Shown here: positions 810 to 22,292 of the stretch, in pieces
Numbering within the stretch: position 1 is the first letter of the stretch
Layout: each line of letters starts with the position of its first letter
From: Corallococcus coralloides DSM 2259
GTDB lineage: Bacteria; Myxococcota; Myxococcia; Myxococcales; Myxococcaceae
Length of the DNA stretch: 64,000 nt
Assembly: GCF_000255295.1 (NCBI RefSeq)
Contig: NC_017030.1
Span: 4,154,001-4,218,000 of the forward strand
Reading direction: 5' to 3'
The notes under the pieces: model-generated
What the model was told of the DNA's origin: nothing
The model's input: the letters and a program-made list of their open reading frames with translations, nothing else
The model's database searches: none
Made by a program: the position numbers and the translations under genes

Positions 810-840
810 GCTGCCTCTGTCCGTGTGGCGCCTAAAGGGC

Positions 841-867
841 GGAGCCGGCGGGAATCGAAGCCTCGTA
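841..867 (-). other. tRNA/tmRNA 3'-end-like fragment, possible att remnant
   Basis: Read on the minus strand this contains TTCGATTCCCGCCGGCTCC, which looks like the T-loop, 3' T-stem and acceptor strand of a tmRNA or tRNA. The expected 5' half of the T-stem is absent (GAGGC does not pair with CCCGC), so it is not a functional RNA gene. Only the 3' half of such a gene is kept at many integrase attachment sites. Its position beside a broken transposase and a low-GC island makes an att remnant plausible. I did not find a second copy in the window. Confidence 0.3.
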
Positions 868-994
868 GGGGAAATTGCCCCCGCCTTGGCGGACAGTCAT
901 CTACCTGTCCGCCCCTCTGAAAAGCGGTGCACCCTACAGTCCGGGAGCGTTCGGGTGCGTCCAGTCAACTTGGTCCATTCTTGGTCCCAACTGC

Positions 995-1575
995 TCACTT
1001 GGAACCGCACGACAGCGGTAAGTACCCTCGCCGCTCCGAATCCGTGGGGCCCGCGCCGTGCGCAGTAGTAGTCAGCGCCTCGAAGGCCTGCGTCTCATGG
1101 CGCTGGCCCGCCGTCAGCTCGAAAACGAGCGGCCTGCCCTGGCCCTCTGCCCGGACGTGCAGCTTGGTGGAAAAGCCTCCCTGGCTGCGGCTCAGCGCTT
1201 CGGCCTCCCCCTCTGACCGGCGTGCCTCGTGCGCCGATCGCATGCTGGTGGTGGCGGATGACGCTGGCGTCTATGAAGTGCAGCGTCCAGTCCAAGTGCT
1301 CAGCTGCGTGCGCTTCAGCATGTAACTGCCGCAGCACGCGCGCCCAGATGACTGCCTCCTGCCACCGGCAGAAGCGGCGGCTGAGCGTCTTCCGACTGCC
1401 GAACTGCTCCCGGGGTACGTCGCGCCACGGCGCCCCACCGTGTGCAGCACGCAGAGGATTCTAACAAGCACGTTGCGCTGGTCATTGTTGGGACAACGTG
1501 GTCCGGCTTCTGGGGCAGCAGCAGCCCGGGCAGCCGCTCACATTAGCATCCGTCAGTTCTCCTCGACTCATGCCA
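995..1575 (-). pseudogene. IS5-family transposase remnant
   Basis: Three minus-strand reading frames together spell a decayed IS5-type DDE transposase. From high to low coordinates the pieces include GAPWRDVPREQFGSRKTLSR (near 1440-1380), LDWTLHFIDASVIRHHQHA (near 1290-1240), then GGFSTKLHVRAEGQGRPL and FELTAGQRHETQAFEAL (near 1180-1080). The middle block carries the DASVIRHHQH stretch where the first catalytic Asp is expected. The frame changes at about 1430 and 1240 and the C-terminal third is missing, so it is not functional. No clear terminal inverted repeats are visible. It borders the low-GC operon and is consistent with past mobile-element activity here. Confidence 0.75.
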
Positions 1576-1616
1576 TCCCAACACCCGACCCTGCTCGAAC
1601 TATTTGCGGACACGGC

Positions 1617-2858
1617 CTAGAAGCGAACCACCTGAATAATGCCCTCAGCATTACTCTTGCCTACGATGGAAGTCGTTCCGTCTTGCGAAACAATGATCGC
1701 AAGTGCTGGGCCCGACTGTCCCTTGCAGAATCGCACGGCTGACTGATGTCTGGCTCCACCCACCTTGCTTAGCTCAATCTCCGTCCAGCGAGAGACGTCT
1801 GCATTTCTTTGCATGATCTTGGTTTCGCTATCAAGCCCTGGGTCAAAATCAATGAACGCTCCAAATCCAGCTATATTCAGATGCTCATCAACCAGGACGG
1901 CGCCGTCGACTGCTGACAAGCGGGCTACAAAGGCCACTGCCTTCTGATACCTTGTCTGCGCCCACTCACTATTGAGCAACTGATAGTAGGAATTGGCATG
2001 CCTAGGGTCGTCCCCTATGAGAGGAAATTCAAACATAGCTTCATTTGGAAGGGGCAGCGCATGTTCAGCGTGCAGCCCTAACGCATCCGAAAGACGGTTG
2101 CAGATCAGTCCCTTGGACTTAAATTTAATCGTAATTCCTCTTGAGATATTCTTGCGCTCCTGTAAGAGAACCGCCCCTCCGTGGTGCAGATCGGTTATTG
2201 CCGAAGCGATATCATACAGCATCCTGCTCTTATGATTGATGGCCTTTTCGGTCGAGCCAAAGCAACCAATAAATCTTCTGACAATTTGCAAGAAATGCGT
2301 AGATGCCAGTACGGGAGAAGATCCCTCAAAAAGGAGAGCATCTCCTTTGTTGAACCGGAGGAGCGGCCGGCCCTTAAGTTGTAGCTTGACTGCGCCGATT
2401 CCACTTGTTTCGGCAAGCACGCCTGATGCAACTCTGGTTGTATTGGTGTTGATTTGCTTATTCCCGTAATGAATAACCCCCCAGACTTCTAGCTCATCCT
2501 GGCCCACCGGTCTTACCCCAAGGTGTGTCGTCGCCGCCTCGACAGCGGGTGCGAGTTTTGCAAGTTCGCGAGGATTAAATGAAATTGGCTTGTCGAACTC
2601 ATAGGAATCGCGCCTGTCGCTGAGGTTCTTTGGTACATCGGTGAATTCGACAGACAGGGCGGTTTGTCTTCCTTCGTCCATGTACTGGGATGCAAAAAAT
2701 GGCACATCCAATAACAGCCCGATTTGCTGCGTGCTCGGGAGAAGCCAAAGGTTTTGGGCAGTAGAGGTGTCGGATGATTCGCTAGAGTATGCCGTTTCCA
2801 GAAGCGACCGTATCCGCGGAGCAAAATGGCTTGGGATTCTAAATTGAGATTGAGACAT
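1617..2858 (-). CDS. DisA/DAC-fold protein, DACNV-like putative nucleotide enzyme or sensor
   Basis: A 413-residue protein (from ATG 2858) and the last gene of a three-gene operon. The C-terminal part resembles the diadenylate cyclase fold. A block LHHGGAVLL (225-232) leads to DGAVLVDEHLNIAGFGAF (318-335), then GGARHQSA (367-374) and LAIIVSQDG (386-394). In DisA/CdaA enzymes the DGA and GTRHRxA motifs make cyclic di-AMP; here the third residue of RHR is Gln372, so activity may be altered or lost. The N-terminal half, with LAKLAPAVEA (99-108) and VWGVIHYGN (125-133), resembles the Pfam DACNV 'probable sensor' type; that family call is from memory. A GTG at 2984 has a good GAAGG site six bases upstream and would add 42 residues. 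Low GC compared with neighbours outside the operon. Role is inferred only. Confidence 0.65.
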   Translation of the reverse strand: MSQSQFRIPSHFAPRIRSLLETAYSSESSDTSTAQNLWLLPSTQQIGLLLDVPFFASQYMDEGRQTALSVEFTDVPKNLSDRRDSYEFDKPISFNPRELAKLAPAVEAATTHLGVRPVGQDELEVWGVIHYGNKQINTNTTRVASGVLAETSGIGAVKLQLKGRPLLRFNKGDALLFEGSSPVLASTHFLQIVRRFIGCFGSTEKAINHKSRMLYDIASAITDLHHGGAVLLQERKNISRGITIKFKSKGLICNRLSDALGLHAEHALPLPNEAMFEFPLIGDDPRHANSYYQLLNSEWAQTRYQKAVAFVARLSAVDGAVLVDEHLNIAGFGAFIDFDPGLDSETKIMQRNADVSRWTEIELSKVGGARHQSAVRFCKGQSGPALAIIVSQDGTTSIVGKSNAEGIIQVVRF

Positions 2859-3029
2859 GTGGCTTGCGGTCAACCTGGGTGAGTGTTGATTGAAGATGAG
2901 CTCCCAATAAGAAGAAGCGCATTCTAAACGCGCTGGCATGAGGCAGTGACGTGCACCAGCGAAGCCTCCTTGCAAGTTGGTCACTCCTAGCCTTCACGGT
3001 TCGGAAATGATTTGGCAACACAAGCTAGG

Positions 3030-4022
3030 CTACCGGCTCTTCTTCCTAGGTCTTGCGGCCTTTTTTGCTTCATCTTCGGCGCGCCGAGCTGCTGCACGGT
3101 TCCTTGCGTCTGTCCCGCCCATTGGAATAAACAAAGACGTTACACCGCCAAGCCATTCAAACTGATCCAGTGCCAAACACGAATTGCCAATGCGCTCGTA
3201 GTGATTTTGATCAACAAACGAATGTGGATCAGCCAAGCGATGCTGTCGGTAGATGTCGGGATAGCAAGTCGCCATGACAAAATCTACAAACTGTCTCGGA
3301 GAGGGCACTGCCGTCACTGGAATACGCATGTGCGGGAAACCAGCTACGTGGAGGTGACAGTCGTGATGCAAGACCCCTTTTCTCTTGGCTGCGGGGTCGA
3401 AATCAATCCGAATCCAAGAAACCAGTTCATCATCAGATGGGCCCTGTAGCTCAAGGCTCAAATCATGTTCTGGTTCCACGATATCTGGAGTAATTCCCGC
3501 AAGTTCCGCAGGATGCGAATCTGACGGAGACTCACTCGTAGTCTCCTCGGGAATAATTCCCAAGGCATCTGCGAAATCTATTTCTGGAGTGCCTGTCGCG
3601 TGTTCAATTTCGGAGACTGGCTCTGCAACGGCATCCTGCTCTGGGAAAACTCCCGCCTTCTCCTCGTCACTAGGTGAAAGTTTCTCAGCGCTTTTGCTTC
3701 CGCCCTCCGTCGCTCCCTCCACAACCGAAGCAGAGCGCGTCGCGTAATACCCCAAGGAAGCGCTAAGGATATTTTGCTTTGACTTGTCGAAAACATAGTA
3801 AAGGCAAATCAAGGCTTCGTCTTCGGCAATCTGAATGGAATACTGCCCATTCATATCCATCATCAATACGTCGCCGCGACAAACCGGCCTGTTGGACTTC
3901 ACGATCTGTCTATTGTCCCAGCTCAGGAAATTGTTAATGCGCTTCCCTCGCAGGTTGATGAAAATGTCGCCCCAGTCTTGATATACCGACAGAAGATCCG
4001 AGGCCAGATCATTTAGGTTCAT
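3030..4022 (-). CDS. DUF2290-like protein of the low-GC operon
   Basis: A 330-residue protein with two parts. Residues 1-100 form a compact start domain. An acidic, Ser/Glu/Pro-rich linker (about 105-200) joins it to a C-terminal domain containing WIRIDFDP, LHHDCHLHVAGFPHMRIPV and PSPRQFVDFVMATCYPD. The pattern of an Asp-Pro step, paired histidines, RIPV and a P-x-x-F-x-x-F segment is what I recall of DUF2290. No biochemical function is known to me. The tail is very basic (KKAARPRKKSR). The ATG at 4022 overlaps the helicase stop by 14 bases and has GAGG six bases upstream, so translation is probably coupled to the helicase. Longer upstream starts in the same frame would lie inside the helicase gene and are less likely. 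Confidence 0.65.
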   Translation of the reverse strand: MNLNDLASDLLSVYQDWGDIFINLRGKRINNFLSWDNRQIVKSNRPVCRGDVLMMDMNGQYSIQIAEDEALICLYYVFDKSKQNILSASLGYYATRSASVVEGATEGGSKSAEKLSPSDEEKAGVFPEQDAVAEPVSEIEHATGTPEIDFADALGIIPEETTSESPSDSHPAELAGITPDIVEPEHDLSLELQGPSDDELVSWIRIDFDPAAKRKGVLHHDCHLHVAGFPHMRIPVTAVPSPRQFVDFVMATCYPDIYRQHRLADPHSFVDQNHYERIGNSCLALDQFEWLGGVTSLFIPMGGTDARNRAAARRAEDEAKKAARPRKKSR

Positions 4023-6177
4023 CCATCGCCTCGCCAAGCTTTCTGTACAGCTCTCGCAGCGCCTCCGGATCCGTCTGGCTAAGCGCGTCTGCGTCGACAT
4101 CAAGAAGTTCCTTCACCGACCGTTTGACTCTCGTCACATGTGCACGCCTGCGACTCGTTTCGAGGTCAAGCTGCCTGATTTTTCGAGGGTCTGGGAACGC
4201 GAATCTGAATCGTGGGATATCGTTCACCAACTTGTGAATTTCAGCCAGAACGGCATCCATTCGCGTGCCACTGCCTGTTACCCGAACCCAGCCCTTCGCC
4301 CTGGAGACGCTCGTAAAGAACCGATTGCGCGCCTCGATCTCCCCTTGGTACGTGGCAATATGCTCCGCATTGATTACATAAACGACGGGAGCCTCGTTGC
4401 CCTTTGCCCTATGCACAGTGGCAAGTGTCACATAGCCTGGTTCTGCAAAAGATGCAGCGTCATGGACAATGCCCGGAATCAACGAGTTAATTCCACGAGC
4501 AAAAAGGAACTGCTGGAGTCGCGCGAGGTCTCGCTTGGCCTCAATCGAGTTCAGCGTGATCACCACAATCTGCTCAGATGGAACTCCCTCCTCTTTGATA
4601 TCCTTCTCAATTGACTCCGCAACCCATCCAAGCTCCGAGGTTCGATCGTCGAACTTCTTCGCTGTAATTAAATCCTGGCTGCCCTTGTATATTCTCTCGA
4701 TTGGGTTGGGGCTATTCTCGTCTGGCCTCGCAATCACGACATTATTGCCTGGAACAAGCTCACCACTTTCGAGTTCGTATCCCACGGCTTTCCAGGATTC
4801 AGTACTGCCTAGCATCTGTACGCATCCTCGTGGCGCATACAGGCCAAGTCCAATGGCATGCGCAAGCATCAGCACGCTCCGCGGACAGCGGTAAGACTTC
4901 TGAAGCACGAGATCCTTCTCTATCCCGCCAGGATACTCGCCCTCCAATGAAACAACAGGGCTACCATCCGGATGACTTCCGAAGAGTTCTTCCAGTTTAG
5001 GCATCTCCAGGGCAGTAAGATTCTGCAATTCATCGTAGGCCCAGTAGACCGAGTGGGGAGGATGTGAGAGTTGATAGGCAACTCTGAAGAACTCTGCAGG
5101 GAAGTCTTGCGCCTCATCAATTAAAATAAAATCATACTCAGGCTCAATGGGCATTTGGAGTGCTGACTGAAGACACGCAGCGAATGGGCTTTCGCCGTTC
5201 ATTCTTCGAGCAGCATTGAAGTCTAATGGGGGGCGATTCTGTCGCTGCGCAAGTTCTGAGTAGACACCAGGACGGCTTCTTCCACCCCAGGCATGTCGAA
5301 TATGCAGCCTGTCCCAATTTGGCCCACTCTCTCCGTTGACCTCATAGAACTCCTGAATCAAACGTTGCGCTTGGCGGTAAAGGCTATGAGTTGAAAATGT
5401 AAAAAGAATCTTCTTCTCAGGATACCGCATGTGGATATTTGCGGCTTTCATAGCCAAGAGCACCGTCTTGCCTGTTCCCGCGAGCCCTCGAATTCGTTGC
5501 GGTCCTTCAGGAACTTGGACGGCAACCTTCTGCTGTTCCAAATCGAGCAAAGAAATCTCTCGATTAAGAGCCTTGATTGCAGCCCCCAGCTTAGTAGGCG
5601 GCTCTTCCACAAGAGGAGCTGGGATGCCTTTCTGCATCAGCGGAGTAACCGACTGAAACACAGACATACACAGCTTCCACTGCTCCTCTGTGAGTTCGGG
5701 CGTTTGAGTGAGGGCTGAGCTGAGATCGCCGTCTTGCCAGACCACTGACTGTCCAGCGCCTATAGGACCGAACTTAGTCTCAAATTCCCTGCGCGAAATG
5801 TTCGGAAATGCGACGGCAGCCTGCGTCTTTAACAGGTGCCGCAAGGCGCGTTGCGCCTTGAACTTGGAATTCAGCGCCTCTGAGAAGTCTTCAGCTTGCA
5901 GAAATGGAGAGTCGATGCTTCCTGCTCCAATACCCCAAACTTCAGACGTTACGACAGTCAAGTCGTCGATTTGGTATGGTAAGCACTTGACTGCGACCGG
6001 ATTGTATCCGCGAGCCAGCACCAGCAAGTCAGGCGGAGCGCCTGCGGAGCGAATGATTGGGTGCTGATAATAGGCAACGCCTTCTGTGTTTTGGAGTGCG
6101 CCGGATAGCCACCCCCAAACAGTCTTGCTTGCTGCGTCGTTTGAGAATGACTGCGAAGGGACAATAAGGTTGATCAT
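4009..6177 (-). CDS. Nuclease-like N-terminus plus UvrD/SF1 helicase
   Basis: A 722-residue protein and the first gene of the operon. SF1 helicase motifs are clear: Walker A GLAGTGKT (231-238), Walker B DEAQD (354-358), a motif III-like AYDELQ (380-385), KSYRCP (427-432), TVHRAKGNEAPVV (587-599) and FTSVSRAKG (621-629). The first 110 residues look like a NERD/PD-(D/E)xK nuclease, with PDLLVL (Asp50) and VAVK (Lys64). The Glu of the ExK motif is replaced by Ala62, so cleavage may be lost. ATG 6177 is chosen because AAGGAG stands eight bases upstream. Such helicases occur in DNA repair and in phage-defence operons; Gabija GajB is one relative by fold, but GajA is absent here. GC is much lower than in flanking genes. 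Confidence 0.8.
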   Translation of the reverse strand: MINLIVPSQSFSNDAASKTVWGWLSGALQNTEGVAYYQHPIIRSAGAPPDLLVLARGYNPVAVKCLPYQIDDLTVVTSEVWGIGAGSIDSPFLQAEDFSEALNSKFKAQRALRHLLKTQAAVAFPNISRREFETKFGPIGAGQSVVWQDGDLSSALTQTPELTEEQWKLCMSVFQSVTPLMQKGIPAPLVEEPPTKLGAAIKALNREISLLDLEQQKVAVQVPEGPQRIRGLAGTGKTVLLAMKAANIHMRYPEKKILFTFSTHSLYRQAQRLIQEFYEVNGESGPNWDRLHIRHAWGGRSRPGVYSELAQRQNRPPLDFNAARRMNGESPFAACLQSALQMPIEPEYDFILIDEAQDFPAEFFRVAYQLSHPPHSVYWAYDELQNLTALEMPKLEELFGSHPDGSPVVSLEGEYPGGIEKDLVLQKSYRCPRSVLMLAHAIGLGLYAPRGCVQMLGSTESWKAVGYELESGELVPGNNVVIARPDENSPNPIERIYKGSQDLITAKKFDDRTSELGWVAESIEKDIKEEGVPSEQIVVITLNSIEAKRDLARLQQFLFARGINSLIPGIVHDAASFAEPGYVTLATVHRAKGNEAPVVYVINAEHIATYQGEIEARNRFFTSVSRAKGWVRVTGSGTRMDAVLAEIHKLVNDIPRFRFAFPDPRKIRQLDLETSRRRAHVTRVKRSVKELLDVDADALSQTDPEALRELYRKLGEAMDEPK

Positions 6178-6695
6178 TGGATTCGCTCCTTGCCTGTGCG
6201 TGCCAATGTGCTCTCGCAATTCAATTTAATCATAAGTAGCCCGCAGCGAGCAGGAACTGCGCCTCCCCCCAGCAGGGATTCTCTTGGCTGCTGCCGGAAG
6301 GGTCGAGCGCGGGCGTGCGTCATTCGAGGCGGGGGCGCGTGCCACGTAATATTTTCGCACGGTCCAGCACGGAGGAATGCAAAGGGGACGCTACTTGTCC
6401 CGCTTCGGGCGCTTCGGCTAGCAATGCCAGGGGCACGTCCTCCGGCTATTGGCGCACCGCGCAGCAGTATCGTAGTAGCTCTCATGCGCAGAGCTTAGAA
6501 TGAAGAGCGGTAACTTTCGAGGGTTCGATGAGTTGCCGTCCCCACTACGGGCATCCCCTGTTGGGGGATGGCGGACTGGGCAGCAAATGCACCACGGGCG
6601 AGACAGCCTCTTGCCGCCCATACGCGCACCGAGTGGGCTCCATGGACTCAAACAATGCGGCGTCCACTCCGTGGCACTGACCATTGAGCGGCGGC
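6178..6695. other. Gene-free junction with one hairpin
   Basis: About 520 bases between the helicase start and the end of the pseudokinase gene. It holds the helicase promoter region, AT-rich around 6215-6240, and a perfect hairpin CATCCCC (6552-6558) with GGGGATG (6564-6570) that could terminate transcription of one side. GC content rises back to the genomic level around 6250, so this probably marks the right edge of the low-GC island. I saw no convincing gene, att repeat or transposase here. Confidence 0.4.
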
Positions 6696-7847
6696 TCATG
6701 CCGGGCTTGGCTCCGTCGTGATGAAATCCTGATGCCTCAGATTCTTTGGGCCCTCCTCCTCGGCCATCGCTTGCCCGGCCCTTCGCAGTGCCGCCTGAAT
6801 CTCCTGCGCCGCCATCCTGGGTGTGTAGCTCCCTCGCGCTCGCAGTACCTTCGCCAAATCATCTTGCAGCGTCAGTGCGGACATATGCCGCTCTGTCGGG
6901 TTGCGCCGCAGCAGCTTGCGGAAGACAGCCCGCGTGGGCTCAGACAGCGCATGCGTTGCCGCTTCTACATCCGCCTGGGTGAAGGTGGCCGCTCGTAATA
7001 TCGTTTCCTCCGGATCCACTCCGCCCCATGCGTTACTCATGCGTGTGATGATGTTGCGCAATAGCTCCGTTTCCCCTTCCGGGACAAGCGCCCATAAATC
7101 CTTTGTCAGCCGGTTGTAAGCACTGAGCAGGTGTTTGCCGGTGGCGAACTCCAGAAGCACCATTCCAAGCGTGAACAAGTCCGAGCGTGCGTCCTCGTGC
7201 TGGCCTAGCAAGGCCTCTGGAGAAGCCCAAAAGACATCTCCCCGGGTGCCGGGGCGGCGCGTGGTGCGCTGGCCGGGAAGTCGTGCGGACGCCACGCCAA
7301 AGTCCGTCAATTTGACCTGTCCATCAAAGGTCACTCGGATGCGTGTCGGGTCAATCGCCCGGTGGACGATTTTCAGTGGATCCCCCTGCGCACTCCGGCA
7401 GGTGTGTGCGTGCGCCAGGGCCCCCGCTATTTTGGCCCCGACATACAGCATGAAGGATTCGGGGAAGTAGCTCTTCTGCTCTGCCGCGACGTCAAGGAGT
7501 GTATTCAGCGAGAAGCCGGAGACTGCTTCCGTAATGACAAACAGAGTGCCCTTGGCTTTGTGCGCTCCATGGACGCAGGCGATGTTCGGGTGTCGGAGGA
7601 AGGTGGCCAACTGGATCTCTTCCTCCAGCCGTTTGCGTGCCTCCTTAGTCACTGCCGCAGAGTCAGACAGCGGCAGCGCTTTGAGGATGACTCGGCGGAC
7701 CACCTTGTTCTTGACGCGCTGGAGAGCCGACAGGACGCGCTCACCATGATGGCCGGGGCCCAGGTCTTCCAGCATTTCGTAAGTGGCACCCTTGAGCGAA
7801 AAGAGCACCAGTCCTTCGGGAAACAGGGAAGTACTAGAGTCCGGCAT
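6696..7847 (-). CDS. Ser/Thr protein kinase-like protein, probable pseudokinase
   Basis: A 383-residue soluble protein with a Hanks-type kinase fold. It keeps the ATP-site lysine (VILK, Lys56) and the DFG motif (Asp182). The catalytic loop is broken: HRDxKxxN reads HRAIDPTR at 162-169, so catalytic Asp is Ala164, the loop Lys is Asp and the magnesium-binding Asn is Arg169. The glycine loop is also poor (GPGHHG, 30-35). It therefore probably acts as a scaffold or regulator, not an enzyme. ATG 7847 is chosen for its AAGGAG eight bases upstream. An out-of-frame ATG sits directly after that site. It lies 194 bases downstream of the kinase at 8042-9835 on the same strand, which suggests a shared signalling function. 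Confidence 0.85.
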   Translation of the reverse strand: MPDSSTSLFPEGLVLFSLKGATYEMLEDLGPGHHGERVLSALQRVKNKVVRRVILKALPLSDSAAVTKEARKRLEEEIQLATFLRHPNIACVHGAHKAKGTLFVITEAVSGFSLNTLLDVAAEQKSYFPESFMLYVGAKIAGALAHAHTCRSAQGDPLKIVHRAIDPTRIRVTFDGQVKLTDFGVASARLPGQRTTRRPGTRGDVFWASPEALLGQHEDARSDLFTLGMVLLEFATGKHLLSAYNRLTKDLWALVPEGETELLRNIITRMSNAWGGVDPEETILRAATFTQADVEAATHALSEPTRAVFRKLLRRNPTERHMSALTLQDDLAKVLRARGSYTPRMAAQEIQAALRRAGQAMAEEEGPKNLRHQDFITTEPSPA

Positions 7848-8041
7848 AGGGCCATCTCCTTGTGAGCGAGCGGGAGCGGGCGCCGCGCCCATGTAGGAAG
7901 GAAGCTAGCGCCAGGTAGGCCCGAAAGAGAAGGACGCCATGGGTTGAAGATTCGGCATTATTGCAACACCGTGGCTGAAGCCATTTGGGGCGTTTTTCAG
8001 GCGCCTTTCTGTAACGCGCCTTTACGCCCCGCGCTCAAAGC

Positions 8042-9835
8042 TTATTGCGCCCCTCCGAGGATGATCGCACCGTCTGTCGGACGCACTAGCGCGGCACCGG
8101 GCTTGGAGCCGGGCAGCTTGTCCAGGCCCCCATTGAGAGAGAGTGACACGCAGACTTCGTGTTCAGCGCCATTGGGTAGACGGGCCCGGGTGTAGCGACC
8201 CACCACCGTCGCCCCTTCCGTCCACACTCTGCCGTAGAGCCGCGAGCCCTCGGGCAACCTGCCGATTGTTTCCCGAATTTCGGATTCGAGATTCCCATCG
8301 CCCAGAAGGGTAAAGCACTCAGCGAAATCGTCGCCCCCCCACATGCGGCCAGCGGCCTCGCATTCGCCGCGTGAACGAAAGGCGGGCTGCTTCGCATCAA
8401 CGAGGATGTTGGGACTCATGCCGTCAGTTAGGCCGAGCCTCTTCATGCTTCGCACTGACTCCGTGGTGCAACTCTGCTGCGTGGGCTGTACCTGCTGCGC
8501 GGGACAGCCCAACAGCGCGGCGGACAAAGCCCCTGCTTCCGCGCACTTCTTGAGGAATCCACGGCTGAAAGCGGGCGCGGACTTCATTGGCGGATTCGAG
8601 GACGGATTCTTGGGGGCAGGCACAGAGGGACTTTCCTTCACGGCGGGGGGCATCTCGGACGGGGACGGTACTGCACTGGCGGACGGTGCGGGCGGTGAAG
8701 GGAGCGCCTGGGGGGGCTGTGCACGCGGGCCGCTGGAGGATTCCGGCACGACTGGGACGGGAGGCGCTTCCCTCGTGGGAGCTTCGCGCAGCAAGGCGAA
8801 GGCGAAGGCGCCGAGCACGACGGCGGCCACGGCCCCCGCCAGCACGCGCCGCCGTGCCTTCGCCGGAGGGCGGCCCGGGGCCTCTGGGCCAACGGAGCCC
8901 GCTTCCGGAGGTGCCTGCACGGGGGCTAGCCACTCCGCGCCCTCCTGGGCCCCCAGCGCTTCCAGCACCTCCCGCATAGAGGCCAGCGAGGGAAGCCGCT
9001 TCTCGAAGTCGCGCGCCATCCACTTTTCCACCCACTCGCTCAACGCCTCGGGCACGCGCGGGTTGGCGGTGCGTGCGGAAGGTGGAGCCCACGTGGGGCT
9101 GTTCACGTCAATGCGGGGTGCCTTGCGCGCCTCCCACCCGCCGCGCGCGGGCTCCACGTCGGTCAGCGCGTCATAGAGGCACACTGCCAGCGAGTAGAAG
9201 TCATCCTCTGGTGGGAAAGGGTAACGCGCGTCGGGGTTGTTCTTGTTCTCCTTGAAGAAGCGTGCCGCTTCCGGAGAGCGGTAGCGATTGGTGCCTGGGG
9301 GCAGGGGCGCATCCGTCAACTCCTGCGCTCCCGAGTATTCCCCCGCGCCCAGGTCGATGAGGACGGGCTCTCCGTCCACCTTGCGCACCATGACGTTGGA
9401 GAGCGAGAGGTCCCGATGGCGAACCCTCCGGCCGTGCATGTGCTCCAGGGCATGGGCCAGCTTCGCGAAGAGGCGCGCTACCTGCTGGAAGGTGGGGCGT
9501 GCGTTCTGGAGCCAGTGCGCCAACGTCCAGCCGTCCACGTACTCCAGCACCAGATACCCGCGTCCCTGGGGCGTGCGCGCCCAGCCCTGCACCTTGGCGA
9601 TATGGGGGTGGTCTACGTGAACGAGGCACACCAATTCGCGCAGCAGGCGTTCATCCGTCTTCCCCGGGTCCGCGCTGTGCTGCCGGTGCTTGGAGAGCTT
9701 GAGGGCTACGGGCTTGCCGTCCTTCACGCCCCGGTAGACGTCGCCATAGGCGCCCCCGCCCTTCCACTCGCGGACGCGGTAGGCCCCCAGGCGGGAGCCG
9801 GGCTTGAGGTAGCTGAAGACTTCCGCCGTCGTCAT
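8042..9835 (-). CDS. Membrane-anchored Ser/Thr protein kinase
   Basis: A 597-residue protein. The N-terminal kinase domain (about 15-290) has a glycine loop GGGAYGDVY, ATP lysine Lys46 (VALK), catalytic HRDLSLSN with Asp142 and Asn147, and IDLG in place of DFG (Asp161). A basic stretch and one transmembrane helix (VLAGAVAAVVLGAFAFALL, near 325-345) follow, then a Pro/Ser/Ala-rich linker and an extracytoplasmic domain with several cysteines (about 425-597). This is the usual myxobacterial receptor-kinase plan: the outer part senses and the kinase phosphorylates Ser/Thr inside the cell. The start ATG overlaps the stop of the DUF2381 gene by four bases (ATGA), so the two are co-translated. Substrate and signal are unknown. 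Confidence 0.93.
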   Translation of the reverse strand: MTTAEVFSYLKPGSRLGAYRVREWKGGGAYGDVYRGVKDGKPVALKLSKHRQHSADPGKTDERLLRELVCLVHVDHPHIAKVQGWARTPQGRGYLVLEYVDGWTLAHWLQNARPTFQQVARLFAKLAHALEHMHGRRVRHRDLSLSNVMVRKVDGEPVLIDLGAGEYSGAQELTDAPLPPGTNRYRSPEAARFFKENKNNPDARYPFPPEDDFYSLAVCLYDALTDVEPARGGWEARKAPRIDVNSPTWAPPSARTANPRVPEALSEWVEKWMARDFEKRLPSLASMREVLEALGAQEGAEWLAPVQAPPEAGSVGPEAPGRPPAKARRRVLAGAVAAVVLGAFAFALLREAPTREAPPVPVVPESSSGPRAQPPQALPSPPAPSASAVPSPSEMPPAVKESPSVPAPKNPSSNPPMKSAPAFSRGFLKKCAEAGALSAALLGCPAQQVQPTQQSCTTESVRSMKRLGLTDGMSPNILVDAKQPAFRSRGECEAAGRMWGGDDFAECFTLLGDGNLESEIRETIGRLPEGSRLYGRVWTEGATVVGRYTRARLPNGAEHEVCVSLSLNGGLDKLPGSKPGAALVRPTDGAIILGGAQ

Positions 9836-10782
9836 GGTCCGCTCTTCTCCTTCGCTGGAGTCCCGTCCTCAAGCACCACGCCCGGAATGGTCAGGGGCCG
9901 GGCGCTGTCCGCCGCCTCCTGTATCACCAACCGGAAGTCTTCCCCGTCCGGCCCGGACTCCCCCTTCTTCCAATCCAACTCCACCGCCACGCGGCCCGTG
10001 CCATTGGGTGGCAGCACGTCCGGCGCCATGGCCACCGTGCGAGCCTCCACGCGGCGGCCAGTGGACGGATTCTCCAACCATGCCTTGCCCGGCCTCCATG
10101 GTTGCCCGGAGAGGTTCGCCACCTTCACGGCGAGCACCACCCACGCATCCGCCTTGAAGCGGTAGACGGACACTACCGCCATGCCTGCCGTCGCACTGCC
10201 GGGCGGCGTGCGGAGTTGTTTGACCATGAGGCCGGATTGGCTCACCTGCCCCGAGAGAATCCATCCGGAGGGGGTCATGGCATTGCCGCGATCGCGCTGC
10301 GCGGTGAGTGCCGCCTCACAGGCGGAGCAGCGGGCCTCCAACGCGGCCAACCGGGCCTGCATCAACTCCGGCGCGCTGGCGTCGCGGAACACCATGACTT
10401 GCGCGTCCACCACGTCCGCCGCCGTGGTGAGCTTGAAGACGGGCGCCGTCAGGATGGATTCGTTGAGAAACGGCACGCGCAATGTCACCGCTTCGCTCAA
10501 TTCCTCCAGCGCCCGTAGGGTGAGGGAGCGCCCTCCCACGGCCAGGATTTCCACGGGGGCCTTTTCACCCAGTTTCACGGCCTGCGCGTCGATCGGCGCG
10601 TCGAACGTAAGCGTGGTGGGAATGCTGATGGAGACGCGCACCCCTCCGGCTTTCTCCGCGAGAGCAATGCTCCTCACCTGGGCTTTGGGTAGGGAGGAGT
10701 CCTCCGCTGCCGCTGCCCACGCTGTGGAGGACAAGAGCGCTAGCAAGAGCCCGGGGAGTCGTGGCAAGGGGCGAAACCTCAT
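9832..10782 (-). CDS. DUF2381 family secreted protein
   Basis: A 316-residue protein with a cleavable signal peptide (LLLALLSSTAWAAAAE) and the features of the myxobacterial paralogous family DUF2381/TIGR02268. These include an N-terminal beta-rich domain (VRVSISIPTTLTFDAPID, LRVPFLNES), a short helical hairpin with LEARCSACEAAL, and a C-terminal beta domain. It is probably periplasmic. The gene overlaps the downstream membrane kinase by four bases. Members of this family are often found beside such kinases, so it may present or modulate the signal sensed by the kinase periplasmic domain; that role is inference. Its promoter would lie in the repeat-bearing gap to its right. Confidence 0.85.
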   Translation of the reverse strand: MRFRPLPRLPGLLLALLSSTAWAAAAEDSSLPKAQVRSIALAEKAGGVRVSISIPTTLTFDAPIDAQAVKLGEKAPVEILAVGGRSLTLRALEELSEAVTLRVPFLNESILTAPVFKLTTAADVVDAQVMVFRDASAPELMQARLAALEARCSACEAALTAQRDRGNAMTPSGWILSGQVSQSGLMVKQLRTPPGSATAGMAVVSVYRFKADAWVVLAVKVANLSGQPWRPGKAWLENPSTGRRVEARTVAMAPDVLPPNGTGRVAVELDWKKGESGPDGEDFRLVIQEAADSARPLTIPGVVLEDGTPAKEKSGP

Positions 10783-10919
10783 GCGTTGACCCTAACAGAC
10801 GACGATCCTGCCCGAGCGTGCTTCCGCCTCTGGCAACGTGCGAGTGCGAGGGCCAAGCCTGAAGGTGTGCCGAATAGGTGCGAGCCATTGGGTGCACTCG
10901 CACGGTTGCCCGAGGTGAC

Positions 10920-11160
10920 GTGCGGAGGGTGATGACTGCTGCAACTTGGCTGGGCTCCACCGCCGCCGCGGTGGTGCTCGGCAGGGCAACCGTCCGTCGC
11001 GCACCGGCTGCGCTCCACGGCCTCTGAGTGGATGCTCGGTGCGGATATTCGCTGCTCCGCAGCGGCCGTGCTCCGCGAGCCGCGAGCGGGTGCTCGGCTT
11101 GGGGCTGGCCGCTGCTCACCGTCCGCGCTCGACGCTCCCCGAGGTAGTGCTTGGCGCGAA
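10920..11160. repeat. Degenerate 58-bp tandem repeats, about four units
   Basis: In the gene-free stretch 10783-11239 the word TGCTCG recurs at 10975, 11033 and 11091, with a variant TGCTTG at 11148. The spacings are 58, 58 and 57 bases. Each is preceded by a CTCCAC- or CTCCGC-like word and a short self-complementary segment; in the first unit CCACCGCC pairs with the following GCGGTGG. The units differ at many positions and the period is not a multiple of three, so a coding repeat is unlikely. A weaker fifth unit may start near 10917. The block lies upstream of the DUF2381/kinase operon and downstream of the gene ending at 11240. Confidence 0.6.
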
Positions 11161-11239
11161 ACGGATCCACGTTCACCGAGGTGGCAAGCCCAGGATGTGA
11201 AGGGGAGGCAGACGCATGAAGAGACTCCTTGACGCCGGC

Positions 11240-12118
11240 CTACTTCGTCTTGATGAAGAACCGGTGTTCCGACCACCAGTCGAAGTGACCGCGGCTGCGT
11301 GAGAAGGAGATGCCGCGGTCGGCGTCGAGGACCTTCTCCCAGACATCGCCGCCGTCCTTCTTCTTGAGCTTGCCCGTCGGCTTTCCCAGGAGCTTCGACG
11401 CCGTGAAGTCGTTCACGCCCGAGGGCAGCTTGAACGCGAGCGGACCGTCGTAGTTCTTGCCGAGATGCACCTCGTGGATCACGCCGTTGCGCCCGACACT
11501 GACGGTGATGCCGCGCTTCGTGTCCTTCAGCTTCCCCTGGGTCTTGGGCAGCTTCGCCGGCAGCTTCAGCTTCTTCAAATCCGCCGCCAGCTTCGCGTCG
11601 CTCACATGCCTGCCGAGCAGCGACACCAGCCCGCGGGGAAGGGGCGCGAGCTTCTTCACGCCCTCGCTCACGACGGGCGCGGGCGTGGCTTCGCGCTGGT
11701 AGGTCCGCACGTTGAACTTCGCGGGCTTCGGCGCCTGGACCTCCTCCTTCTCAAGCCACGCGCGCAGGGCCTCGCGCTCGTCGCCCTCATCGAGATCGTC
11801 CAGGCGTGTCTTCCCCTTGCCCAGCGCGAGCAGGAACGCTTCGAGGCTGGGCGCGACGAGCTTCAGCGCGTCCGACTCCGAATCGAACAGCACCACGGGC
11901 GCCGGCTTCACCGTCGAGACGAGCGCGAGCAGCGAACCGTCCGGCAGCGAGAGGAAGCACCACGCGTCGCGCAGCCCGCCCGGCATCTTCGGTGAAACGA
12001 GCTCGAAGGTTCCGAACGCGCCGTGCTCCTGCTTCGCAACCCACTTCGCGAAGCGCGCGAGCAACGGCGGAACGGTCTGTCCCTTGGGGGCCTTCAGCTT
12101 GACGAAATACCGGCTCAT
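11240..12118 (-). CDS. Conserved hypothetical protein, 292 residues
   Basis: A soluble protein without signal peptide or membrane segment. I do not recognise the family. The N-terminal 100 residues have an alternating hydrophobic pattern (FGTFELVSP, WCFLSLPDGSLLALV, PVVLFDSESDALKLVA) resembling small SMI1/KNR4-like regulators. The middle is Lys/Pro-rich. The C-terminus has a repeated beta pattern (GITVSVGRNGVIHEVHLGKNYDG, then DRGISFSRSRGHFDWWSEHRFF). It starts at ATG 12118, only 14 bases after the stop of the crotonase gene, so the two probably share a transcript. An upstream start within the same frame would run into the crotonase gene. No function is proposed. Confidence 0.75.
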   Translation of the reverse strand: MSRYFVKLKAPKGQTVPPLLARFAKWVAKQEHGAFGTFELVSPKMPGGLRDAWCFLSLPDGSLLALVSTVKPAPVVLFDSESDALKLVAPSLEAFLLALGKGKTRLDDLDEGDEREALRAWLEKEEVQAPKPAKFNVRTYQREATPAPVVSEGVKKLAPLPRGLVSLLGRHVSDAKLAADLKKLKLPAKLPKTQGKLKDTKRGITVSVGRNGVIHEVHLGKNYDGPLAFKLPSGVNDFTASKLLGKPTGKLKKKDGGDVWEKVLDADRGISFSRSRGHFDWWSEHRFFIKTK

Positions 12119-12132
12119 GGAATGCCCCTGAC

Positions 12133-12960
12133 TCAGCGGCCCTGGAACTTGGGCGGACGGCGCTCGGCGAAGGCGGAGAAGGCCTCCGTCAAATCCAGGG
12201 ACTGGAGGAACGCCGAGTTCCACACCGCCACGTAGCGCAGCCCGTCCGCGATGGACTTGTCCGCGCAGTACTCCATCACCTGCTTGGCGCCCTGGACCAC
12301 CAGCGGCGGGTTGTCCGCGATGCGCCGCGCCGTCGCCCGCGCCTCCGTGAGCAGGGCCTCGGGGGAGGGGAAGACCTCATTGACCAGCCCCATGCGCAGC
12401 GCACGCACCGCGTCCACGTCGCCGCCGGTGTAGGCCAGCTCTCGCGTGTTCCCCTCGCCGATGATGCGCGGCAACCGCTGGAGCGCGCCCAGGTCCGCGA
12501 CGATGCCGACCTTCACCTCGCGCAGGGAGAACTTCGCCTCCTGCGAGCAGTACCGGAAGTCACACGCGGCGATGAGGTCCATGCCCCCGCCAATGCACCA
12601 GCCATGCACCGCGGCGATGACGGGCTTCTTGCACCGGGCCATCCCTTCCGTGGCCTGCTGCATCTCCCCAATCAGCTTGAGCAGCCGGCTGCGCTCCAGC
12701 GCCAGGTTGCTCTCGCCGGTGAGCAGCGGCCCCAGCGACTCCATCATCCCCATCAGGTCCAGGCCGTAGGTGAAGTTCTGGCCTTCACCTCGCACCAGCA
12801 GCACACGCACCTCGTCGTCGGCGTCCAGCGCGCGGAGCGCCTCGGGCATCTCTCGCCAGAAGTCGGGGCCCATGGCGTTGCCCTTGCCCGGGCCGGTGAG
12901 CACCAGCTCGGCGATGCCGTCGGCCTTCTCGATGCGCAATGACTTGTACGTGCCGTCCAT
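12133..12960 (-). CDS. Enoyl-CoA hydratase/isomerase family protein (crotonase)
   Basis: A 275-residue crotonase-fold enzyme. The family acts on acyl-CoA thioesters, stabilising an enolate in an oxyanion hole. Visible signatures are the N-terminal IAELVLTGPGKGNAMG, the first oxyanion strand region FTYGLDLMGM, and the classic KPVIAAVHGWCIGGGMDLIAACDFRYCS block. A C-terminal helical trimerisation region ends in AFAERRPPKFQGR, as in many members. Length is normal. ATG 12960 follows GGGAGG by six bases. Candidate roles are fatty-acid beta-oxidation or delta3,5-delta2,4-dienoyl-CoA isomerase activity; the latter is suggested by the long insert after LMGM but I cannot decide. It is probably co-transcribed with the gene at 11240-12118. 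Confidence 0.9.
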   Translation of the reverse strand: MDGTYKSLRIEKADGIAELVLTGPGKGNAMGPDFWREMPEALRALDADDEVRVLLVRGEGQNFTYGLDLMGMMESLGPLLTGESNLALERSRLLKLIGEMQQATEGMARCKKPVIAAVHGWCIGGGMDLIAACDFRYCSQEAKFSLREVKVGIVADLGALQRLPRIIGEGNTRELAYTGGDVDAVRALRMGLVNEVFPSPEALLTEARATARRIADNPPLVVQGAKQVMEYCADKSIADGLRYVAVWNSAFLQSLDLTEAFSAFAERRPPKFQGR

Positions 12961-13008
12961 CCGTTGCCTCCCAGGGAAGTGAGCGGATGGCACTTGAGCA
13001 GATGCCGC

Positions 13009-13956
13009 TCATGCGGGCCAGAACCGGTGGCACTCCGCGCTCCATTCGGAGTGGCGGGTGCGGCCGGACGTCCAGGTCTTGTAGCGGTAGTCGTGGCGGC
13101 TGCGCTTCTGGAAGTAGAACGACCAGCGCCCCGACTCCCGCACCCCGAACACGGTGCCGAACTGGATCAGCTCGTCCTGGTCCACCTTCCAGAACGACCG
13201 GAAGGCATGGGTGCCCACGTGGTACCAGGAGGCGCCGCTCACGCCGCGCTCGTATTCGAGCTGGGCGGTGCCCGCCGCGCTCAGCATGCCGGGCATGTAG
13301 TCATGCATCGACGCGGAGGCCGACGACTGCTGGCTGCCGCCCATGACCTTCCGGGCGGCGTTGAAGCGGGCCTCCATGACCTGGACCTTCGCCTGGTACC
13401 TGGCCGCGTCGTTGGGCGCGTTCGCTCCCGCCGAGTTCGCGTTCAGGTGGTACACCGTCGGCGAGGCAGGGTCGCCGGTGACGAAGATGGAGCACCCCTG
13501 AAGCGCGGCGGTGACGAAGTAGTTCGCGTGCGAGCCCAGCCGCACGCAGTGGGTGCTGTCGAAGCCCCAGTGCAGGTAGTAGATGTCGAAGGACTGCGCC
13601 ACCACGGGGCCACCCACCTCCAGGGACAGCAGGTTGTGGTCCCCGTTGAAGAGGATGCCGGTGCCCGGTTCGGTGATGGGGTTCGTGTTCTCCGACAGGT
13701 CGACGGCCTCGTGCAGCGCCCCGCTGAGCACACAGCCCTGCGTGTCGTAGACCGTGGCCTCCAGTCCGTGCGGGTCCAGGTTGCGCTCGTGCATCAGGCG
13801 CTTCAACCCGACGAGCGACTTCTGCTGGGACGGCGGTGGCGCGACCCTGAGGGCCGGGAAGACGGCCTGCTTCGAGGCCTTCTTCACCAGGTCCTGCGGC
13901 TTGTAGAGGGGAACGAGCGCCAGGGGCCATCTCCGGGTTGGGGGCCCCGGGAGCAT
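13009..13956 (-). CDS. Hypothetical protein with Cys/His-containing beta core
   Basis: A 315-residue protein that I cannot place in a family. The central part contains FNGDHNLLSLEVGG, FDIYYLHWGF, GSHANYFVTAALQGCSIFVTGD and PTVYHLNAN. The conserved-looking order Cys-Ser-x-Phe-Val then Tyr-His-x-Asn could mark a papain-like or deamidase-type active site, but this is only a pattern guess. The last 60 residues are Trp/Tyr/Arg-rich. No clear signal peptide is seen. It starts 14 bases after the stop of the DUF1444-like gene and so probably belongs to that operon. No good ribosome site precedes ATG 13956, so the true start may lie slightly downstream. Confidence 0.7.
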   Translation of the reverse strand: MLPGPPTRRWPLALVPLYKPQDLVKKASKQAVFPALRVAPPPSQQKSLVGLKRLMHERNLDPHGLEATVYDTQGCVLSGALHEAVDLSENTNPITEPGTGILFNGDHNLLSLEVGGPVVAQSFDIYYLHWGFDSTHCVRLGSHANYFVTAALQGCSIFVTGDPASPTVYHLNANSAGANAPNDAARYQAKVQVMEARFNAARKVMGGSQQSSASASMHDYMPGMLSAAGTAQLEYERGVSGASWYHVGTHAFRSFWKVDQDELIQFGTVFGVRESGRWSFYFQKRSRHDYRYKTWTSGRTRHSEWSAECHRFWPA

Positions 13957-13969
13957 AGCGCCAACGGCG

Positions 13970-15286
13970 TCAGGGCACGTCCATGGCCGTGGGATCGGCC
14001 TTCCAGCGCTGGAGCTGTTCCTTGGAGGGAAAGCCCGTCACGCGGTAGCGCTCCGGGTACACGCCCAGCTCGGGCATCAGCAGCGTTCCGGCGTCGCGCA
14101 CCACCAGGTCCCAGCGGACCGCAGCCACCGGGGGCGCGTCCGGCCCCAGCGCCGCGTCCACGAAGAGGATGACGTCCGCTCGCGGGAGCAGCGACTCGCC
14201 CTCATTGGACCAGACGGTCTGACCGAAGAAGCGTCCCTGGTCGTCCTTTGTTGGAATCAGGCTGGCGACGAAGACCTCGCCGTGCTCCTGCTCCTGTTGT
14301 TGCCGGAGCCGCTCGGTCTGGTCCTGGTAGCCGCGCACCCGGCTGGTGAACGCGAGCTTCTCCAGGATGCTCCGCGCCGGGCTCTTGGGCCCGGGGAGGA
14401 AGGGCTTCCAGCCGTCGGCGGTGAGGCGCAGTGCGCTCCCGTCCACGGGGCGCGGTGCCTGGACGCCCTCCAGTGCGGCCTCCGCCAGCGTGAGCAGGCC
14501 CGTGGCGTCGTCAGCGCCGGTGATGAGCACCGTGTCCCGGTTGGGGACGACCACCACCGGATCGCCCTTCACCTCGCAGCCGCGCACCACGTCGTCCAGC
14601 AGCAGCCGTGAGGCACCGTAGCTGTCGTTCGTGAAGAGGGCGCAGACGCCCAGGGTCAGGTGCCGCAGCGGCACGGCCTCCAGCCGCCGCAGGTTGGTCA
14701 TCGCGTCGGCGCGGGCCTGCTCGTAGGTGATGCCCCAGCGCGCCAGCTCCTCCGTGGGCACGTAGCGCATGGCGTCCGGGGTGTCCTGGACGAGCGCCTC
14801 CGCCAGCACCTCGCCCACCGGACGCCAGGACACCGGCGCGGACTCACCGGCCTGCTGGGAGAACGCCTCGAAGGTGTCGCGGGCACGCACCACGAGCCTC
14901 AGCAGGGGACGCGCCTGTTCGTAGGTGGCCGGGGCCTCCGGGAGCACGCCCGCCCGCCCCAACCGCGCGAGCACCTCACCGCGCCGCTCGGGCGGGGTGT
15001 CCTGGTACTCGCGGTAGAAGTTCGCGAGGAAGAGGGTCATCCCCAGACCGCCGTCCGGGGCGATGCGCTGGATGAGGAACTGCTCCGGGTCGTACCTCAG
15101 CTCGCCCGTGGGGTCCGCGGCGCGGAGGGCCGCCAGGGCCTGCTGGACGTATGCATCCCGGTCGCTCGCCTCCAGGGACAGCGTTTCATGAACCGCGGGC
15201 GTTCCATTGGCGAAGACCAGCGCGGCGACGAGCACCAGGGCCGACACACCGAAGCCGGCCACCTTCCACTGCGTGTTGCGTGACAT
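13970..15286 (-). CDS. DUF1444 (YtpQ)-like protein with N-terminal membrane anchor
   Basis: A 438-residue protein with one N-terminal hydrophobic segment (FGVSALVLVAALVFANG, about 12-28), acting as an uncleaved anchor or signal peptide. The middle resembles DUF1444/YtpQ: an ARWGITYEQARADAMTNL segment, then CALFTNDSYGASRLLLDD and DPVVVVPNRDTVLITGADD. The original YtpQ proteins are cytosolic and shorter, so this is an extracytoplasmic version with an extra C-terminal region (about 290-438). Function is unknown. Codon use is typical of the host. It is followed 14 bases later by the 315-residue hypothetical gene, forming a likely two-gene operon. Confidence 0.8.
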   Translation of the reverse strand: MSRNTQWKVAGFGVSALVLVAALVFANGTPAVHETLSLEASDRDAYVQQALAALRAADPTGELRYDPEQFLIQRIAPDGGLGMTLFLANFYREYQDTPPERRGEVLARLGRAGVLPEAPATYEQARPLLRLVVRARDTFEAFSQQAGESAPVSWRPVGEVLAEALVQDTPDAMRYVPTEELARWGITYEQARADAMTNLRRLEAVPLRHLTLGVCALFTNDSYGASRLLLDDVVRGCEVKGDPVVVVPNRDTVLITGADDATGLLTLAEAALEGVQAPRPVDGSALRLTADGWKPFLPGPKSPARSILEKLAFTSRVRGYQDQTERLRQQQEQEHGEVFVASLIPTKDDQGRFFGQTVWSNEGESLLPRADVILFVDAALGPDAPPVAAVRWDLVVRDAGTLLMPELGVYPERYRVTGFPSKEQLQRWKADPTAMDVP

Positions 15287-15323
15287 GGGCCCGACACACT
15301 AGCACCGGCCTCGAAGCGCCATC

Positions 15324-16961
15324 TCAGAGCTCGTTGAAGATGAGCAGGCCCCGTGCGGTGTCCACGACGTACACGTGGCCGTCTCCGGGAACGCGGATGC
15401 CAATGGCGCCTTCGAGCAGGTCATCGCCCCGGTGGAGGTCGGACTCGCGGAACGTGTTGAAGTAAGCGACTTCGCGCGGCTGAGGGGGAACGGAGACGTC
15501 CAGCACGCGCAGTCCTTCCTGGTAGTAAGCGATGTAGAGCCGCTGGCCCTTGAGGATCATGTTGTGGATGGAGGTCTGCGGGCGAAGCTTGTAGCGCCCC
15601 ATGAGCTGGATGTTGGTGGGGTCCGTGACGTCCAGCACGCGCAGGTGGGCGCCCTGGTACTCGCCGCCCTCGAACGCGACGGTCTTCCCCGCGAAGGTGC
15701 CCACCGCGCTCGCGTGACTGGTCGCATAGCTGTTGTCGGTCTCGAACGTGTAATGGCCCAACTCCTGTGGGCTCATCGGGTCCTTCACGTCGTAGACGAC
15801 GTAGCCCGCGCTGAAGTGGTTGACGTAGAGCCGGTCCTGATAGGCGAAGGAGTCATGCGCCGAGGGAAACATGGACGTCGTGTCCGCGGCGGTGAAGCGA
15901 TTGAGCAGGACGGGCTCGAGCGGCGTGGAGATGTCGAAGACCAGCGTCTCGCCAGTGGGGGCGGGACCCGGTGACACGGCGTAGAGCCGGTGGCCCTCCA
16001 CGAACATCGTGTGGACATCGATGGGGCCGCGGCCGGGCACGCTGCGCACGAAGGCCGGGTCCGCGGGGTCGGTGATGTCGAAGACGATGACGCCCGAGCT
16101 CTTGCTGGCGATGTAGAGCGCGTCGTCCTTGGCCCAGGCCGCGTTCCAGTACGAGTCTCCCGGCAGGGTGAGCCGCTTCGTGATGACGGGATGGCTCGGG
16201 TCCCGGACATCGACCACCGCGAGCCCTCCCGGGGCCTGCGTGAGCGGGTCGTCAATGGAGACGACGTAGGCGTGGCCCCGGTGGACATACACATCCACCG
16301 GGCGCACCGTCTGGACATGGGTCTCGGAGAGGAGCCGCAACCCTCCCGAGGATTCGGACTCGCCCCGCGCCCAGGTCATCCGCGCGGCTTCGAAGGTGCC
16401 CGAGGTGGTGACCTTGCCATCGGTGCAGCGGGCGAAGCACCCCGTCACCAGCCCGGGCCCGGTGACGCCGCAGCCCGCGAAGACCAGGTTCCGGACGGTA
16501 TTCCGGAAGGTGTACTGCGCGGAGACGCGGAAGCCTCCCTGGAGCTGCTGCCGAGTGATCGGAGCGCTCCGCATCGTCGGGAGGGAGTTCATGGTCGCGG
16601 TGCCGCCATCCGCGGGGACCCGGATGCCAGCGAAGTCCGCGAGGCCCGAAGCGTGGCGCATGTCCACCTGGTAGATGCCGTGCGGCTCCAGGGTGGCGAG
16701 CGGGGCGGTGTCACACTTCGACAGGTCGAAGAGGGAAGGGTCGTCGCAGTCGACGACGGTCCCCGGTGGCGGTGTGAAAGCGCAGGGGGCGTACTCGCCC
16801 CGGTCGACCCAGTCCGTCGGGTCGACCAGGGGCGTATAGGTCCCGTCCCAGGGCTCCACGGGAGGAGGTGGCCGCGGGGGCTCGGACGTGTCCGAGCAGG
16901 AGGAGGACAGCAGGGCACAACCGAGGATGACTGCACGCAGGGCAGGGGACTCGAGGGCCAT
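15324..16961 (-). CDS. LVIVD-repeat lipoprotein (beta-propeller)
   Basis: A 545-residue lipoprotein. The signal peptide ends in ALLSSSC, with the lipidated Cys at 22, followed by a Pro-rich spacer. From about residue 190 on, repeats of the LVIVD type are visible, each with a hydrophobic strand, 'DV(R/T/K)DP' and a Pro-x-x-hydrophobic tail. Examples are LAVVDVRDPSHPVI, VIVFDITDPADPAF, YVVYDVKDPMSPQEL, LRVLDVTDPTNIQL and LRVLDVSVPPQPRE. Such repeats form a surface beta-propeller used for binding, often of choice-of-anchor or adhesion type. The ligand is unknown. The N-terminal 170 residues, with several cysteines, form a separate domain that I do not recognise. Confidence 0.88.
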   Translation of the reverse strand: MALESPALRAVILGCALLSSSCSDTSEPPRPPPPVEPWDGTYTPLVDPTDWVDRGEYAPCAFTPPPGTVVDCDDPSLFDLSKCDTAPLATLEPHGIYQVDMRHASGLADFAGIRVPADGGTATMNSLPTMRSAPITRQQLQGGFRVSAQYTFRNTVRNLVFAGCGVTGPGLVTGCFARCTDGKVTTSGTFEAARMTWARGESESSGGLRLLSETHVQTVRPVDVYVHRGHAYVVSIDDPLTQAPGGLAVVDVRDPSHPVITKRLTLPGDSYWNAAWAKDDALYIASKSSGVIVFDITDPADPAFVRSVPGRGPIDVHTMFVEGHRLYAVSPGPAPTGETLVFDISTPLEPVLLNRFTAADTTSMFPSAHDSFAYQDRLYVNHFSAGYVVYDVKDPMSPQELGHYTFETDNSYATSHASAVGTFAGKTVAFEGGEYQGAHLRVLDVTDPTNIQLMGRYKLRPQTSIHNMILKGQRLYIAYYQEGLRVLDVSVPPQPREVAYFNTFRESDLHRGDDLLEGAIGIRVPGDGHVYVVDTARGLLIFNEL

Positions 16962-17045
16962 GCCCGGGAGTGTATAGCATTGCGCCGGGTGAGAGGGATT
17001 CGCTCCCTGCTTTCGTGGCCCGAACGTTCAGTGGGCACTCCGGCG

Positions 17046-17639: not shown

Positions 17640-17661
17640 CCCACGACTCTAGTTCAAACGC

Positions 17662-18687: not shown

Positions 18688-18748
18688 GCCGCGATCCTAT
18701 CCCTCCCGTGGATTGACGTCTGCATTTGACCGGGAGTACGACCCGAGG

Positions 18749-19759: not shown

Positions 19760-19894
19760 GGCGCCGGGCCTGCAAGCCTGTCTGTTGATGCGCTTCAGCG
19801 GGCCTACTGCGGGTGTGAGTTTTGTTGCCGATATTGCAAGTCATTCTCGATATCCTCTGGTTCAAAGACAATCCGGTCTTGGGAGGACATCGCC

Positions 19895-20242: not shown

Positions 20243-20257
20243 GGTTCCACGGCGGCT

Positions 20258-20280
20258 GGGCGCCTCTTTCCGGGGCGCCC
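20258..20280. terminator. Convergent-junction hairpin
   Basis: GGGCGCC (20258-20264) pairs with GGCGCCC (20274-20280) around a nine-base loop. It lies between the stop of the crystallin-like gene and the stop of the convergent EEP gene, so it can serve both strands. There is no long T-run. Confidence 0.5.
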
Positions 20281-20295
20281 GTCTTCCCCAGCACG

Positions 20296-21087: not shown

Positions 21088-21164
21088 GCTGCCACGAGCG
21101 GCGGACGCTCGCGCTTGGACGTGAATCTTGCGAGGCTCGGGGAGCCCCCTAGGCTTCGCCGACC

Positions 21165-22112: not shown

Positions 22113-22292
<180 letters not shown>

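Follow-up and report, generated by a model that had tools for sequence, protein, structure and literature searches.

The genome of Corallococcus coralloides DSM 2259, a single contig of 10.08 Mb, carries three adjacent genes of unusual base composition, and the question they raise is whether they form one defence or signalling system. We analyzed the 64,000-nucleotide stretch of DNA that contains them (the window). A first-pass annotation of this DNA had taken the three genes, encoding a UvrD-type helicase with a nuclease-like N terminus, a DUF2290-like protein, and a protein with a diadenylate cyclase (DAC)-like fold, for a candidate undescribed trio without a named counterpart. That reading is wrong for genes 1 and 2, which belong to the Helicase+DUF2290 system (PMC9122126), and gene 3 is probably a co-resident of the same GC-matched insert and not a component of the pair.

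Composition and genomic site of the three genes

The open reading frames as called (6177..4009, 4022..3030, and 2984..1617) are all intact and all lie on the minus strand. The G+C contents of genes 1, 2, and 3 are 0.527, 0.510, and 0.509, respectively, compared with 0.68 for the whole window, and their GC3 of 0.53 to 0.55 contrasts with 0.69 to 0.91 in the neighboring genes (0.91 in the methyltransferase gene). The earlier description of three low-G+C, minus-strand genes is thus correct, as is the 14-base overlap of genes 1 and 2 (4009–4022), in which the DUF2290 start overlaps the helicase stop; the UvrD-type helicase, DUF2290, and DAC assignments likewise hold up in a Pfam scan. The genes had also been called tightly spaced, which is true of genes 1 and 2 only, because a gap of probably about 171 bases with a terminator-like hairpin precedes gene 3. 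The broken transposase reported beside them was recovered as well; its DDE matches are weak (E = 0.13–0.23), but the remnant shares 74 to 87% identity with elements that congeners carry in up to three copies.

Table 1 Features at the locus, in window positions
Feature	Position	Strand	Basis
Gene 1, UvrD/Rep-type SF1 helicase, 722 aa, degenerate NERD-like N-terminal domain	4009..6177	minus	Pfam, PADLOC, motifs
Gene 2, DUF2290 protein, 330 aa	3030..4022	minus	PF10053, PADLOC DUF2290, invariant residues
Gene 3, DACNV-DAC protein, 413 aa (likely start)	1617..2858	minus	PF21751, PF02457, kept motifs; start from comparison with relatives
Terminator-like hairpin (T-rich tail) in the gap from gene 2 to the likely gene 3 start	2916..2934	minus	Consensus scan, weak
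IS5-like transposase gene, broken remnant	1072..1494	minus	Weak DDE frames; repeats in congeners

A related complete genome (G006) is about 93% identical to the flanks of this region (-2736..810 and 11208 onward). There, the flanks are parted by a different, unrelated insert of about 1.9 kb (L132, 5089–6984), compared with 10.4 kb in the window, and the kinase–DUF2381 block found upstream of the three genes (window 6653–11142) sits about 87 kb away. Because the site differs in this way, we regard the three genes as accessory DNA in a variable region. A tRNA-associated insertion was looked for, and no tRNA was found. According to the Pfam scan, the flanking genes (72–809 and 6696–24728) encode methyltransferases, kinases, other enzymes, or unassigned products, and therefore no defence island, the proximity of which had been proposed as a check, is seen among the flanking genes examined.

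The kinase–DUF2381 block itself, which encodes two Ser/Thr kinases and one DUF2381 protein, is 82 to 90% conserved in several congeners (L131, L133, L134, L135, and L140). The DNA past its kinase end is different each time and of low G+C (about 0.54) in four of the five, and this end is possibly an insertion site for accessory genes.

Genes 1 and 2 match a known anti-phage pair

The gene 1 product matches the Pfam families UvrD_C_2 (6e-11) and UvrD-helicase (1.7e-5), and its helicase motifs GLAGTGKT, DEAQDF, and RAKGNEA are all intact. Moreover, residues 96 to 693 match the PADLOC Helicase model PDLC03002 (E = 1.5e-133, 445 bits), a model that also matches helicases without DUF2290. The protein encoded by gene 2 matches PF10053 (5.6e-9, 36.1 bits, cutoff 25) and PADLOC DUF2290 (3.5e-11). 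Both elements of Helicase+DUF2290, namely a helicase of the PADLOC family and a directly adjoining DUF2290 gene, are therefore present. In the study of Rousset et al. 2022, a helicase–DUF2290 pair from P4-like satellites specifically inhibited phage T7 (PMC9122126).

Comparing the window pair with this system, it becomes clear that both have a UvrD-type helicase gene followed by an overlapping DUF2290 gene, with matches to both PADLOC models and a location in foreign DNA. The degenerate NERD-like (nuclease-related) N terminus is likewise shared with the plasmid and prophage members. However, the window helicase belongs to a separate Chloroflexota/Atribacteria-like clade that is 30 to 33% identical to the plasmid members, the window DUF2290 protein has a long acidic, low-complexity insert of about 100 residues in its middle, and the pair is adjoined by a DACNV-DAC gene, an arrangement unseen elsewhere.

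Gabija (GajAB) also includes a UvrD-type helicase, and PADLOC GajB gave weak matches (1e-10). However, the window holds no GajA-type TOPRIM/OLD nuclease, the partners being DUF2290 and DACNV-DAC. Gabija was rejected, as the Helicase model scored 445 bits against 39 bits for GajB, the third-best PADLOC model.

Distribution and origin of the helicase–DUF2290 pair

The closest helicases, 48 to 52% identical over nearly the full length, come from outside the host's phylum, namely from two Ktedonobacteria, one Chloroheliaceae MAG, and one Atribacteria MAG. In three of these four relatives, a DUF2290 gene overlaps directly downstream of the helicase gene; the fourth (L018) has no DUF2290 within the 18 kb examined. 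Altogether, DUF2290 directly adjoins the helicase at 21 other loci on plasmids, prophage contigs, and chromosomes, and the pair is present in 7 of 10 plasmid regions and 8 of 10 prophage or viral contigs inspected. Only 4 of 96 genomes of the host's family contain DUF2290, in every case next to the helicase. Helicase relatives within the family are only 34 to 39% identical to the window protein. In the tree, the window helicase groups with the Chloroflexota/Atribacteria set (support 100/99), apart from the clade of the E. coli plasmid homologue. This placement, together with the base composition, indicates that the pair was acquired horizontally from outside the host's family.

Two of these loci have neighbors of their own. 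On a Thioflavicoccus plasmid (L096, 3473–6326), the pair lies between BREX genes, with BrxC and a methyltransferase upstream and a PglZ-domain gene downstream. At the Ktedonobacteria locus L018 (7965–13254), the helicase, a member of the window's clade, is followed by two genes that resemble McrB/McrC on visual inspection.

A degenerate nuclease site points to DUF2290 as a putative effector

The helicase N terminus aligns with the NERD domains of relatives so annotated, although Pfam NERD itself gave no match in the window helicase. The D ... E-x-K active site of NERD is absent: the window reads PPDLLVLARGYNPVAVKC, with no acid two residues before the lysine. The nuclease-like N terminus of the first-pass annotation is thus a NERD-like domain, but a degenerate one in which E-x-K is missing.

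This loss is widespread among the DUF2290-partnered helicases. Among those with a readable N terminus, 19 of 20 have no acid-x-K triplet; only L146 has one, DLK, and its near-twin (L145) has DLT. E-x-K is kept in five helicases without DUF2290 (L089, L091, L093, L077, and L078), of which the last two are near-copies of each other, and two further helicases (L018 and L080) have neither DUF2290 nor E-x-K. The helicases with E-x-K form one clade (support 100/100), and a single event could therefore explain the pattern, which is not statistical proof. The loss of the NERD site where DUF2290 is present and its retention in a clade without DUF2290 suggest that the effector role may have passed to DUF2290. 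The simplest reading of these sequences is that an ancestral nuclease–helicase became a sensor helicase with a separate effector, DUF2290.

The two near-copies with an intact NERD motif and no DUF2290 partner, UvrD helicases of the family from two congeners (L077, 7791–10370; L078, 8315–10894), appear to have a LexA-like S24 peptidase domain at the C terminus; one member of the alignment matched PF00717 (2.9e-13).

PF10053 was found in all 13 DUF2290 partners scanned, and residues D68, R205, H219, H223, R233, F245, and Y254 are invariant among 13 relatives, while identity to the more distant partners is 14 to 23%. An AlphaFold model built from 12 aligned sequences was for the most part confident over about residues 1 to 95 and 200 to 260 only. 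With this model, Foldseek returned no match at E below 3, and no VIA-align match exceeded Z 4.1; a profile search of the PDB, for which the DUF2290 alignment was used, yielded only chance matches. DUF2290 is the best candidate for the effector, because the NERD site is dead beside it and intact in the clade without it; since its model matched no fold, we keep the term putative effector. A resemblance of the DUF2290 motif to TumE/DUF6516-type toxins was considered and dropped, because the Pfam scan showed none of these families.

The DACNV-DAC protein

Gene 3 encodes a DACNV sensor domain (PF21751, 5.3e-22, 78 bits, cutoff 27) and a DAC domain scoring below its cutoff (PF02457, 7.2e-4, 19.6 bits, cutoff 27). 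The DGA, G-x-RH, and SxDG motifs are present and invariant across twelve relatives. The last residue of RHR is Q in gene 3 and varies among the relatives too. The protein is thus a plausible candidate cyclase. A single-sequence AlphaFold model of the protein was uninformative (pLDDT 31).

The gene most likely starts at ATG 2858 (M43 of the called frame) and not at GTG 2984, since the 54 residues that would then precede the conserved FxAS fit the 42 to 62 of the relatives, compared with 96 from the GTG. The product would have 413 residues instead of 455, and the gap behind gene 2 would be about 171 bases instead of 45. The consensus scan found at least as many terminator-like hairpins in shuffles as in the region, and the hairpin at 2934–2916 gives weak support; the predicted RNA folding of the gap shows nothing out of the ordinary (z -0.68).

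DS-2 is a CBASS-type system with a diadenylate cyclase (DefensePredictor), and its DAC is needed for defence (PMC13092281). A C-terminal DAC region is common to gene 3 and the DS-2 protein. However, the window has no CD-NTase or phospholipase gene beside gene 3, where the neighbors are the helicase, DUF2290, the IS remnant, a methyltransferase, and kinases, and the helicase–DUF2290 pair is unrelated to CBASS. Membership of gene 3 in DS-2/CBASS was rejected on this ground and because it scored 22.9 bits against a cutoff of 630 on the DS2_3 model NF053872, in the C-terminal DAC region only.

Of the 195 genomes of the host's phylum, 34 have DACNV domains, at 43 places in total. One of these places is conserved across the genus, and the neighbors of the DACNV genes outside the window are diverse. 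A helicase of the family or DUF2290 was near none of the 42 other DACNV places in these genomes, and the two stay apart even in the five other genomes that have both. Likewise, none of the 21 other helicase–DUF2290 loci has a DACNV-DAC gene nearby, and no DACNV relatives were found in plasmids or viral contigs. The search covered the 195 phylum genomes, 10 plasmid regions, 4 genome_contigs loci, and 10 viral or prophage contigs; genomes outside the phylum entered only through close relatives of the helicase, and rare trios could exist there. Co-occurrence of the three genes across genomes, the check proposed earlier, was thus seen in the window alone, and a conserved trio was rejected. A lack of such co-occurrence and a match to a named system, both observed here, are two of the outcomes that the first-pass annotation had listed as refuting its reading. 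Gene 3 is linked to the pair by shared insert, strand, and composition alone, and is probably a separate nucleotide-sensing or cyclase gene that the pair does not need.

Other DACNV genes have surroundings worth recording. In the host genome (L071, 3600–8326, at about 1.92 Mb) and at L072, the genus-wide DACNV gene adjoins genes of the AHH-nuclease and Imm11 types, which may point to a toxin/immunity setting. In another family member (L057, 7216–13288), a run of DUF2381, Ser/Thr kinase, and M24 peptidase genes precedes a DACNV-DAC gene and is reminiscent of the DUF2381–kinase block upstream of the window genes.

Discussion

Taken together, genes 1 and 2 very likely represent a divergent copy of the Helicase+DUF2290 anti-phage system that arrived by horizontal transfer in a low-G+C insert beside an IS remnant, with gene 3 as a separate gene. 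The defence role proposed in the first-pass annotation is well supported for genes 1 and 2, because they match a named two-gene system that was phage-tested in a homologue, although the window helicase branches apart from the plasmid/prophage clade that includes the E. coli homologue; gene 3 is tied to the pair only by adjacency and matching G+C.

The unusual composition common to all three genes speaks against a two-gene reading, as it would also fit a three-gene unit in which a cyclic dinucleotide, produced or sensed by the DACNV-DAC protein, turns the helicase–DUF2290 pair on or off. All genes lie on the same strand with matching G+C and GC3, gene 3 keeps the DGA and RH motifs, and in DS-2 the DAC is essential for defence (PMC13092281). 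Nevertheless, we consider this variant unlikely, given that the combination is missing from every other pair locus (0/21) and every other DACNV place (0/42) surveyed, that the probable 171-base gap contains a terminator-like hairpin, and that the score on the DS-2 DAC model falls far below the cutoff. If true, the three genes would make up a composite immune operon of a new type, with Helicase+DUF2290 under the control of nucleotide signalling. Less likely still is that the pair serves DNA repair or plasmid and replicon maintenance on mobile DNA rather than defence. UvrD-type helicases work in repair and replication, and several relatives lie on plasmids near replication or partition genes. 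However, the patchy spread within the family, the BREX locus, and the prophage contigs are unlike housekeeping, and the homologous pair inhibits T7 (PMC9122126).

For the two-gene defence system, a mechanism can be outlined. By analogy with helicase-based defence systems in general, the SF1 helicase would bind and translocate on phage DNA intermediates as a sensor or motor, and its N-terminal NERD-like domain, a presumed dead nuclease, would probably serve for docking or DNA binding. The DUF2290 protein, which is translationally coupled to the helicase, may then act as the effector through its conserved D, R-x-D, H-x3-H, and R residues once the helicase has engaged phage DNA.

Gene 3 is a caution that adjacency in one genome need not mean a system. 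With the pair, a two-gene anti-phage system of which little is understood gains a divergent clade common to the host, Chloroflexota, and Atribacteria. The pair also offers a mechanistic lead in DUF2290, an effector candidate in which the conserved residues (D, R, D, H, H, and R) can be mutated.
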